NCBI GenBank assembly: GCA_030618705.1
Contig: JAUXCW010000007.1
Coordinates: forward strand, 1 to 32,274
Direction: 5' to 3'
Length of the DNA stretch: 32,274 nt
Source of the DNA: Gammaproteobacteria bacterium
GTDB lineage: Bacteria; Pseudomonadota; Gammaproteobacteria; Pseudomonadales; JAHEGP01
This document shows, piece by piece, positions 332-30,236 of this stretch. Below the pieces are notes generated by a model, which was not told the origin of the DNA, searched no databases, and saw nothing but the letters and a program-made list of their open reading frames with translations. Positions within the stretch are counted from its first letter, which is position 1; each line of letters opens with the position of its first letter. A program made the translations under genes and the position numbers.

Positions 332-1183
332 TCAAGCCTGCAAGCTGACTTTCATCTTCTTCATGGCATTTTGCTCCAACTGGCGGATTCGCTCGGCGGA
401 TACACCGTACCTGGCGGCCAACTGGTGCAGGGTTTCCTTTTTTTCGGACAGCCAGCGACTGGCGAGAATATCCCGGGAACGCTCGTCGAGCTGGGCGATG
501 GCACTGTGCAGGCTCTGCTCATTGCTTTGCTCCCAGTCGGCATCCTCTACCAGTAATGCCGGATCAGCGCTGTGATCCTCCAGATAGTTGGCCGGGGCAG
601 TAAAGCTCTTTTCGTCGTCGTCGGCGGCCCCATCGAAAGGTGCGTCATAGCTGCTCAAGCGACCTTCCATACGACGCACTTCAACCACGTCTACACCAAG
701 GTCATCGGCCACGGCATGGGCTTCGTCATTGGTCAGCCAACTGAGGCTCTTCTTCTTGCCGCGCAGATTGAAAAACAGCTTGCGCTGGGCCTTGGTGGTC
801 GCCACCTTGACGATGCGCCAGTTGCGCAGTATGTACTCGTGCATCTCGGCTTTGATCCAGTGCACCGCAAAAGACACCAGGCGCACTCCCCTCTCGGGGT
901 CAAAGCGCTTCACCGCCTTCATCAGGCCGACATTGCCCTCCTGGATCAAATCCGCCAGGGGCAAGCCATAGCCGGTATAGCTGCGAGCCACATGCACCAC
1001 AAAGCGCAAATGACTCATGACCAGTTGCCTTGCGGCCTCCAGATCCTGTTGATAGTACAGACGCTGGCCCAGCGCTTGCTCCTGCTCGAGAGACAAAATC
1101 GGCACCGAATTGACAGTCTGAATATAGGCATTAACATTACCGCCCGGCACCATCGCTGGTACCAGTTGCAATTCCTTACCCAT
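332..1183 (-). CDS. rpoH: RNA polymerase heat-shock sigma factor RpoH (sigma-32)
   Basis: This 283-residue protein has the usual RpoH length (about 284). Region 2 lies near residues 54-125, including the [20 protein letters not shown] stretch for core binding and -10 recognition. The RpoH-specific box QRKLFFNLR is at 133-141, and a region 4 helix-turn-helix occupies the C-terminus ([19 protein letters not shown]). RpoH directs core polymerase to chaperone and protease promoters. The start ATG at 1183-1181 follows a GAGGGGG Shine-Dalgarno at about 7 bases. It lies directly downstream of ftsX, the conserved ftsYEX-rpoH order, but has its own leader with a perfect CIRCE site, so transcription probably starts separately and may be repressed by HrcA. 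Confidence 0.97.
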
Positions 1184-1216
1184 GCAATAACCCCCTCTAT
1201 TTCTGGAACAGACATT

Positions 1217-1243
1217 TTAGCACTCAATAGGTTAGAGTGCTAA
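1217..1243 (-). promoter_or_regulatory. CIRCE operator (HrcA binding site) upstream of rpoH
   Basis: On the minus strand the sequence reads TTAGCACTC, nine bases, GAGTGCTAA. This is the full 9-9-9 CIRCE consensus with both arms perfect. It ends 33 bases before the rpoH ATG, the usual position in a leader or promoter. A weak sigma-70-like promoter overlaps it: TTGAAC at 1259-1254, 17 bases, TCTAAC at 1236-1231 (each four of six matches), so bound HrcA could block initiation. CIRCE is the established operator of the HrcA repressor, normally found at groESL and hrcA-grpE-dnaK. HrcA itself is not in the window. Confidence 0.93.
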
Positions 1244-1257
1244 CTGGTGAAAAGTTC

Positions 1258-1282
1258 AAAAAAAAACCAATTATCGGCGAAA
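1258..1282 (-). terminator. Possible weak intrinsic terminator after ftsX
   Basis: Just past the ftsX stop the minus strand has a very short hairpin (CCGATAATTGG, about four pairs with one G-U, 1277-1267) followed by nine Ts (1266-1258). The T tract is convincing but the stem is weak, so termination would be partial. The last Ts also form part of the suggested rpoH -35 element. Confidence 0.35.
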
Positions 1283-1287
1283 ACCCC

Positions 1288-2277
1288 CTAGCGAGGCTCT
1301 ATCGCACCCAAATGTCGGGTAACAGCCAGCCAGGCCCCTGCCAGCCCAAGTACGATACCTGCCAGCGCCAGGGACAGGCTGCCCGACACTCCCAGGCCCT
1401 GTAGTTCGAAGCTGCTGTCGTAGAGATCGGCGAGGATGCCCACGGGATCGTCCAGCCACCACAGCAACAGGGTCAACAACAGCCACGCCACGATGCTGCC
1501 ACCCAGTCCGTACCACAATCCGGTATAGAGAAACGGGCGGCGGACATAGGCATCGGTGCCACCCACCAGCTTGGTCACCACGATTTCATCACGCCGATTT
1601 TCAATCGCCAGGCGTATCGTATTCCCGGCAACCAACAACACCCCCAGACCCAACAAAAAGGCCAGTGCCAGACTTATTCGCTTTCCAAGCGCCATCAAAC
1701 TGTAGAGCCGTTGCACCCATTTCATATCCATCTGCGCCAGCTCCACACCGGGCAGTTGACCAAGCTGCAGCAGTAATTGCTCCATGGCCGCAACGCTACT
1801 GGCCCCCAGGGAGGGCTGTAACACCACCACCGCCGGCAGCGGATTTTCCGGCAATTCGGACAGTAGCGCGCCAAAACCCGACAACTGGCTAAATTCCTCC
1901 AGTGCCGCCTGCCGGGAGACATAGACGGACTGCGCCACATCCTCCCTGCGCGCCAATTGCTGCCCCAGGCGGCGACCGGCCTCTTCATTGACCGAATCCT
2001 CCAGAAACAGCGACACCCTGGCCGCCCCGTCCCAGCCGGCGGTCAGCTGCTGCATATTTTCCAGGGCGACAAACAGGCTGGCCGGCAGGGCCAGGGCGAT
2101 ACCGATGACCATCCAGGTCAATAGACTGGCCCCGGGAGCGCGCAACAGGCGACGCAGGCTTTCCGTCGCGACCAGGCCGTGGTGGGAGCGCCAGGCGTCG
2201 AGACGATCCGCCAGCGTCGCCTTACTCTGAACCGCGCCGGTCTCACGCCGCCCCCGGCGGTGCCCCGGGCTACTCAT
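1288..2277 (-). CDS. ftsX: Cell division protein FtsX
   Basis: FtsX is the membrane partner of FtsE. In the family, the complex couples cytosolic ATP hydrolysis to activation of periplasmic murein hydrolases at the septum, often through EnvC. The 329-residue protein fits the fold: a basic cytoplasmic N-terminus of about 50 residues, a first membrane helix near 50-72, a periplasmic domain of about 140 residues, and three helices in the C-terminal part (near 215-240, 262-285 and 300-322). The family-typical ENRRDEIVVTKLVGGT segment follows helix 2. Its ATG overlaps the ftsE stop in an ATGA arrangement, indicating translational coupling. It has no ATPase motif, as expected. Confidence 0.96.
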   Translation of the reverse strand: MSSPGHRRGRRETGAVQSKATLADRLDAWRSHHGLVATESLRRLLRAPGASLLTWMVIGIALALPASLFVALENMQQLTAGWDGAARVSLFLEDSVNEEAGRRLGQQLARREDVAQSVYVSRQAALEEFSQLSGFGALLSELPENPLPAVVVLQPSLGASSVAAMEQLLLQLGQLPGVELAQMDMKWVQRLYSLMALGKRISLALAFLLGLGVLLVAGNTIRLAIENRRDEIVVTKLVGGTDAYVRRPFLYTGLWYGLGGSIVAWLLLTLLLWWLDDPVGILADLYDSSFELQGLGVSGSLSLALAGIVLGLAGAWLAVTRHLGAIEPR

Positions 2278-28575: not shown

Positions 28576-29955
28576 TCAAGCGAGTATCGGCGGCAGTTCT
28601 TTCTGCAGGCGCATTTTCTCCACGATGCCCTCCCCGGTCAGGGCAAACCCCAGCAGGGCGCCGCCGGCGTCGCGGAACTCCGCCACCACATTATTGCCGT
28701 CCTCCTGTATTTGCCACTCGCCCCGGGCATCCGGCGCCGGCGGACTGACCACCACCGGACAGGCCGGTGTCTTGATGGTAACAGGCATCGCCGGGTAGGT
28801 AACGGGGGTGGGCTCGCCGGCCAGGGTTTTACCCAGCGCCCGCGCCGAGGCCATCAAGGGCGCGACAAACACCAGCACATTGCCCTCCACCTCGGCACAA
28901 TCACCCATCGCGTAGACCGAGGGCGCACTGGTCTGGAGTAGCCGGTCGGTGATGATACCGCGATTGCAGTTAATGCCGGCCGCTTTGGCAAGGGCGGTAC
29001 GGGACCGAACCCCCACCGCGGATACCACCAGATCGGCCTCGAGGACCTCGCCGGTGCTGAGGCTGACCAGCACACCGGAGCCCTCGCTATTTTTGTTGAC
29101 GGCGGTGACCAGCGGGCCGAAGTGAAAGCGCGCACCGAGATCTTCCAACGCCCGCTGCACCGCCCTCCCCGCCGGCTCCGGCAACAAGGTCGGCAGACAA
29201 TGGCCCATGGGATCCACGGTCTCGACCTCGAAGCCGCCGTTGAGCAGGTCATTGGTGAATTCACAACCAATGAGCCCGGCGCCGATAAGCACGACCTTTT
29301 TCACCTCGTTCTGCACTACCGCCTTGCGAAAATCATCGTAGTCCAGCAAGTCGTTAATCGAATAGATATACTCCCGGGCATCCCCCTCGATGGGCGGAGT
29401 GATAGTGTCTGCGCCAAGAGCGAGCACTAACTTACTGTAGTGAATGGAGGTCTCGGCATCCCCCAGCAGAATCATCTGCCGTGAGGTATCAATACGCACC
29501 ACCTGGGTCATGGTCCAGACACTGGCCTTGAATTGCCTGCCCAGGGAGCCGGCATCGAGTTGGGCCAGGTCATCCGCGGAATTCTGCTTGGTAAACCCGG
29601 TAGACAACATGGGCTTGGAATAGGAGCGCCCGTCATCCGACGTCACAATAATCAGCGGCGTATCCTTGTCGTGCTTGCGGAATTCCTTGGCCAGGCCGTA
29701 ACCGGCCAGTCCACTGCCGATAATCACTACCGGCGCCCTGGCGAGATCGGCTTCGAGCTGCTGTTCGTGGTGCGGTACTTTTTCGGGAGTTTGTTCAGCC
29801 AGAAGGGTAAAGTCCTCCTTGCCGACCCCGCAATCCGGACAAAGCCAGTCCCCGGGGACATCTTCCCAACGTGTTCCCGGTGCGACTCCATTGTCGGGAT
29901 CTCCCCTGGCCTCATCATAAATAAAGCCACAAACCATACATTCCCACTTTGCCAT
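28576..29955 (-). CDS. Rubredoxin-rubredoxin:NAD(P)+ reductase fusion
   Basis: An electron-transfer protein of 459 residues. An N-terminal rubredoxin (1-52) with C6-x2-C9 and C39-x2-C42 binds one iron. A short linker joins it to a two-dinucleotide-binding flavoprotein: FAD loop GSGLAG (80-85), NAD loop GAGLIG (225-230), and the FAD-contacting YAMGDCAE (348-355). The reductase part resembles RubB/AlkT, which reduces rubredoxin with NADH for alkane hydroxylation or for oxygen and peroxide detoxification. In Pseudomonas rubA1, rubA2 and rubB are separate genes near recG; here they are one polypeptide. The ATG at 29955 has GGGGAAG upstream. No alkane hydroxylase lies in the window, so a stress role is possible. 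Confidence 0.93.
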
Positions 29956-30236
29956 ATGCTGCTTCCCCAGTCTGGCCTGCCACGCGGCCATGTTCGAAAT
30001 CCGCCGCTGCCGGCAGCTATCCGTACGATTACGCTCCCGGCGGCAGCTTGCAAGTTTATGTGATTTCCCGCATTCTGCCGCCCGCTACCCACAGAGGCAC
30101 CAGGATGGGATCATCCAGCTGCCAGAGTGATAGACCGCGTATTTTACGATCAATGTCCTCGCAAGTACCAGCCCCGGTTAGCGAGATGGCGCGTCCACCG
30201 ATAAATTCAATTCCGCACCCCGGCGACGGTCAGGCC

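Follow-up and report, generated by a model that had tools for sequence, protein, structure and literature searches.

We analysed a 32,274-nt stretch of gammaproteobacterial DNA, hereafter the window, and observed that a perfect CIRCE operator, the site of the repressor HrcA, lies in the rpoH leader, interlocked with the elements of two promoters. Judging from its sequence, the minus-strand region 1214–1258 is probably a composite promoter/operator of rpoH, in which a sigma-E and a sigma-70 promoter would be gated by HrcA through CIRCE.

A perfect CIRCE operator precedes rpoH

The original prediction had placed a perfect CIRCE at 1217–1243 on the minus strand, 33 nt from the rpoH ATG, and a search with the pattern TTAGCACTC-N9-GAGTGCTAA confirmed it. 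Minus-strand positions 1243–1217 read TTAGCACTC-TAACCTATT-GAGTGCTAA (in full, TTAGCACTCTAACCTATTGAGTGCTAA), with both nine-base arms free of mismatches, and 33 nt (1184–1216) lie between the operator and the ATG (1183–1181). This was the sole match with up to three mismatches in the window, dinucleotide shuffles of which gave a mean of 0.01 such matches by chance, and it is the only perfect CIRCE of the entire assembly (3.4 Mb, 97% complete). The surrounding features are the following; ftsX adjoins rpoH in relatives too.

332–1183, minus strand: rpoH (sigma-32), 283 aa; TIGR02392, 402.9 bits (cut-off 323.1)
1191–1197, minus strand: Shine–Dalgarno-like GAGGGGG, 7 nt upstream of the rpoH ATG, by direct reading
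1217–1243, minus strand: perfect CIRCE operator, arms TTAGCACTC and GAGTGCTAA, spacer TAACCTATT
1288–2277, minus strand: ftsX, the upstream neighbour, in the same direction; TIGR00439, 356.3 bits
2274–2957, minus strand: ftsE (context); TIGR02673, 290.7 bits

HrcA and its other targets in the genome

The genome carries an intact, full-length hrcA, which scored 329.2 bits with TIGR00331 in the genome profile search (cut-off 197.2). One further CIRCE with up to three mismatches was found genome-wide; it has two mismatches and ends 96 nt before the groES ATG. The original prediction had named groESL and the dnaK operon as the established CIRCE-bearing operons. The groESL part of this classical regulon was recovered here, whereas the contig with hrcA-grpE-dnaK had no CIRCE with up to three mismatches, neither before hrcA nor before grpE. 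The predicted HrcA regulon would therefore consist of groESL and rpoH, with the better operator at rpoH, and the DnaK arm would sense HrcA only via RpoH. A sigma-32-like sequence (CTTGAA-N14-ACCCAT) that matches at 11 of 12 positions precedes grpE, so the dnaK arm may have its link to HrcA through RpoH alone. Another 11/12 match lies a long way upstream of groES; in shuffled sequences, matches at 9/12 or better are not rare. Between hrcA and the opposite-facing gene upstream of it (locus L002, about 2585–2604), we also noticed a LexA-box-like palindrome, TACTGTTAATATGTACAGTA, which probably serves the divergent gene, recN by its look.

The operator is conserved in relatives and co-occurs with hrcA

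The palindrome before rpoH was retained in the same-genus genome G032 and at every Halieaceae-labelled locus examined. The named loci from Haliea, Halioglobus, Parahaliea, Sediminihaliea and Halieaceae all carry CIRCE with 0–1 mismatches, 30–34 nt upstream of the homologous rpoH start. Ketobacter and several unclassified MAGs likewise have CIRCE before rpoH, with 0–1 mismatches and 30–34 nt from the start. Both its location in the leader of a heat-shock gene and its conservation among relatives agree with membership of the CIRCE class. No CIRCE was detected at the rpoH loci examined from Pseudomonas, Marinobacter, Endozoicomonas and Chromohalobacter, and those of Gilvimarinus and Pseudomaricurvus have degenerate copies with 3–4 mismatches. 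Two of the loci, one from an Endozoicomonas MAG (L005) and one from a contig labelled Salinisphaera sp. G21_0 (L009), closely resemble each other in both RpoH protein and leader although their genus labels are unrelated, and one of the labels may be wrong.

We surveyed 195 genomes, many of them MAGs, of the order, which was taken as GTDB Pseudomonadales from the named relatives. CIRCE with up to two mismatches was present in 62 and hrcA in 56, and many genomes have exactly two CIRCE sites, at groES and rpoH. An rpoH CIRCE with up to two mismatches was found in 49 of the 54 evaluable hrcA-positive genomes versus 6 of 139 hrcA-negative ones (Fisher p ∼4e-33, a significance inflated by kinship). 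Two of the 56 hrcA-positive genomes were left unjudged, G063 since its rpoH was not found and G186 since it is truncated. The hrcA-positive genomes lacking the site are G022, G068, G105 and G157, together with G028, which has three mismatches; the hrcA-negative genomes that have it are G002, G016, G087, G091, G141 and G145. Families f18, f24 and f31 each mix genomes having both hrcA and the rpoH CIRCE with genomes having neither, a pattern suggesting that in some families the two were lost in concert.

Incomplete assembly may explain some of the six hrcA-negative genomes that keep the operator. In G016, G091 and G145 (genus g17) and in G087 and G141 (genus g13), the rpoH CIRCE has 0–1 mismatches and hrcA was not found in assemblies that are 65–97% complete; in these, hrcA either is unassembled or was recently lost, before the operator decayed.

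Retention of CIRCE in these six genomes is what one would expect if the palindrome were a relic, or acted only as an RNA hairpin in mRNA stability or as the ftsX terminator, with no HrcA control of rpoH; moreover, a sigma-E promoter at this position would transcribe part of CIRCE. Such a role is nevertheless highly improbable: the exact sequence is conserved beyond what mere pairing needs, CIRCE is found together with hrcA and has decayed in genomes that lack the gene, and it overlaps a −10 element (see below). The terminator or hairpin reading was rejected, as no terminator-like site was found at 1150–1450. With hrcA present and the palindrome conserved in relatives, neither of the two outcomes that the original prediction named as refuting it was obtained, and the control of rpoH by HrcA that it put forward appears well supported.

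Sigma-E and sigma-70 promoter elements around CIRCE

The original prediction was right about CIRCE, but missed its promoter context, namely a sigma-E-type promoter around CIRCE and an overlapping sigma-70 extended −10. These became visible when leaders, 66 distinct ones from rpoH and 28 from groES, were stacked on CIRCE. In the rpoH stack, the arm columns are 89–100% conserved and spacer positions 13–18 are near random. Additional conserved columns are GGAACTTT at −14 to −7, upstream of the arms, T-A-A at spacer positions 10–12 (A12 in 89%), and AAT 3′ of the right arm (T30 in 100%). The groES stack is without these extra columns and has a TTGACA/TAT-type promoter directly before CIRCE.

The motifs of RpoE are GGAACTT at −35 and TCAAA at −10 (PMC4890791). 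In the rpoH leader stack, the TC of the left arm and the TAA of the spacer together make TCTAA, 15–17 nt past GGAACTT, and the right arm with the AAT makes TGCTAAAAT, a sigma-70 extended −10. When compared with the form of a sigma-E promoter (GGAACTT, about 15–17 nt, TCnnA), the window has TGAACTT-N15-TCTAA, with six of seven bases of the −35. A promoter scan of the window independently gave TTAGCA-N18-TAAAAT (9/12), preceded by TG. The elements are located as follows.

1252–1258, minus strand: sigma-E-type −35, TGAACTT, 6/7 of GGAACTT; GGAACTT-like columns conserved in 66 leaders
1238–1243, minus strand: weak sigma-70 −35-like TTAGCA, 4/6, entirely within the CIRCE left arm, from the scan
1232–1236, minus strand: sigma-E-type −10, TCTAA, 15 nt past the −35; its TC is common to the CIRCE left arm
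1214–1222, minus strand: sigma-70 extended −10, TGCTAAAAT, from leader stack and scan; its TGCTAA is common to the CIRCE right arm

RpoE itself is encoded in the genome (TIGR02939, 327.6 bits; cut-off 236.15). Treating CIRCE as a simple sigma-70 site was abandoned once the column analysis revealed GGAACTT and TCnnA.

The composite is widespread in Gammaproteobacteria

The composite (GAACT, CIRCE and the T) was present in 66 of 369 gammaproteobacterial genomes, and the reversed-pattern control gave 0. A phylum scan of 399 genomes gave 12 composite matches, all within Gammaproteobacteria. Composite matches are not independent, owing to common ancestry. Among the composite loci that were fetched, 39 of 40 are directly upstream of rpoH; the odd one, L261 (G265:C8:47854-47898), has GAACTT-CIRCE preceding a ClpB-like gene, possibly an extra HrcA target. 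Of 40 genomes carrying the composite, 38 have hrcA, as do 18 of 40 genomes that gave no match in the class pattern scans. Thirty other CIRCE loci of the class divide into 16 at rpoH and 14 at groES. Some of the rpoH CIRCE sites in the class are without GGAACTT at the usual spacing, for example L199, L200 and L204, so the composite, though common, does not occur throughout.

The sigma-E promoter shifts with CIRCE spacing and persists without CIRCE

A sigma-E-type promoter matching at least 9/10 was found in 49 of 67 rpoH leaders with CIRCE (1.2 expected) and in 69 of 102 rpoH leaders without it (2.5 expected). Being common in the latter as well, this promoter is either older than CIRCE or independent of it.

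We recovered varied gaps between the −35 and CIRCE with the pattern GAACT-N5..12-CIRCE-NNT. In each of the six sites with a gap of 6 rather than 10, TC falls at spacer positions 12–13 and A at 16, which indicates that the −10 is displaced by the same 4 nt as the −35. At these sites (L226, L227 and L255–L258 of family f153) the −10 lies wholly within the CIRCE spacer and the 16-nt spacing is kept; since all six belong to one family, the independent events are fewer than six. Both sites with a gap of 8, a shift of 2, have TC at spacer positions 10–11. Overall, TCnnA occurs 16 ± 1 nt past GAACTT at 55 of 62 distinct composite sites.

These observations bear on a narrower reading, according to which HrcA acts at the sigma-70 promoter only, and GGAACTT/TCTAA is here a weak or inactive relic of an ancestral sigma-E promoter. 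It would fit a window −35 that is one base off consensus, a strong extended −10 with an invariant last T, and the existence of the above rpoH CIRCE sites without GGAACTT at the spacing. However, RpoE is encoded in the genome, and GAACTT together with A12 is conserved in most rpoH leaders and shifts along with CIRCE spacing, which makes a sigma-70-only arrangement quite unlikely.

Among the 68 distinct CIRCE-negative leaders with a sigma-E promoter, the extended −10 is still in place in 29 (0.5 expected). In the same leaders, the left-arm bases that serve the operator only are mostly lost (A3 retained in 3/68, C7 in 9/68 and A6 in 16/68).

A model for HrcA-gated transcription of rpoH

We propose that rpoH would be transcribed from two overlapping promoters, the sigma-E-type TGAACTT-N15-TCTAA and a sigma-70 promoter with the extended −10 TGCTAAAAT. 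Because CIRCE lies between and across the core elements of both, HrcA bound at 1217–1243 should keep both RNA polymerase holoenzymes, with sigma-E or with sigma-70, from acting there. Without stress, HrcA would hold down rpoH and, via the second CIRCE, groESL; heat or misfolded protein would inactivate HrcA, and both would be derepressed together. In Bacillus, the activation of HrcA by GroEL and its release by GroEL titration are established. Release here could follow the same titration route, or HrcA could itself sense temperature. Such temperature sensing by HrcA is reported in Campylobacter jejuni (PMC8533110). Once rpoH is derepressed, RpoH would drive its regulon, to which grpE-dnaK-dnaJ, without CIRCE here, probably belongs, and envelope stress acting via sigma-E would raise rpoH fully only after HrcA is released. 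Of this scheme, the site, its conservation, its co-occurrence with hrcA and the promoter columns that shift with CIRCE spacing are observed; we infer that HrcA binds there, that both promoters are used, that repression works by occlusion and that heat or GroEL titration inactivates HrcA.

Alternatively, the heat control of RpoH may work mainly in the E. coli manner, through thermosensing by the mRNA and protein instability that depends on chaperones, and HrcA would then be a minor modulator. By eye, the E. coli RpoH-box region seems to be present (QRKLFFNLR in the rpoH translation), and the predicted pairing of the AUG falls from 0.98 at 20°C to 0.73 at 50°C. Against this, the folding energy does not stand out from that of mononucleotide shuffles (z −1.5), and pairing of the Shine–Dalgarno sequence barely alters with temperature. 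A search of the window against Rfam gave no match. We consider a main role of these mechanisms rather unlikely and retain HrcA gating of the composite promoter as the preferred reading. Autoregulation of rpoH by sigma-32 was also considered and set aside, as there is no 9/12 sigma-32 site before rpoH.

Comparison with known systems

The idea of CIRCE at rpoH is not new: a 2004 study predicted a perfect CIRCE before the rpoH gene of Geobacter sulfurreducens, at position −51 (PMC545781, Table 8), the sole direct precedent that our literature search found for HrcA with rpoH. As in our genome, CIRCE is present there at rpoH and groESL, and the HrcA and sigma-32 regulons overlap. In contrast, the hrcA-grpE-dnaK-dnaJ operon of G. 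sulfurreducens also has CIRCE, and no sigma-E promoter is described there (PMC545781). It is, moreover, a single species of another phylum, whereas the conservation here is wide among Gammaproteobacteria. The Bacillus subtilis-type system has the same repressor family and operator, and CIRCE at groESL is in common; the differences are that the target here is a sigma-factor gene and that the dnaK operon here is without CIRCE.

On the sigma-E side, the P3 promoter of E. coli rpoH is transcribed by RpoE (PMC8103513), and sigma-E binding was reported at rpoH of Vibrio alginolyticus (PMC4890791). In both, as proposed here, a promoter of the GGAACTT/TC type puts rpoH under sigma-E; the difference here is that CIRCE is embedded in the promoter, so that HrcA could gate sigma-E. 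In the control search for HrcA, E. coli gave no match. Neither the combination of sigma-E with CIRCE at rpoH nor rpoH as a general gammaproteobacterial HrcA target was found in the literature searched, which did not include Permina and Gelfand 2003, so priority is uncertain.

Implications for the evolution of heat-shock control

A short segment of the rpoH promoter is probably where several stress signals come together, with the inputs of HrcA, sigma-E and sigma-32 converging on ∼45 bp. HrcA/CIRCE repression and sigma-32 activation are textbook examples of parallel heat-shock strategies, and in E. coli sigma-E feeds sigma-32. The logic predicted here is that sigma-E input would reach rpoH only with HrcA off. 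We think it likely, with somewhat less confidence than we have in the composite site itself, that the nested operator is an old and widespread gammaproteobacterial stress integrator, in which HrcA, reflecting chaperonin or temperature status, gates what sigma-E passes on to sigma-32 from envelope stress. E. coli and Pseudomonas, where sigma-E acts on rpoH with no HrcA gate, would then show layouts derived after loss of hrcA, the operator-only bases having drifted and the promoter-shared bases having stayed. This offers a route to the origin of HrcA-free regulation in Pseudomonas and enterics, and the operator and promoter bases should be separable by mutation.

Elsewhere in the window, a single minus-strand open reading frame at 28576–29991 (471 aa) appears by eye to encode a protein with an N-terminal rubredoxin joined to a rubredoxin-reductase-like FAD/NAD protein.
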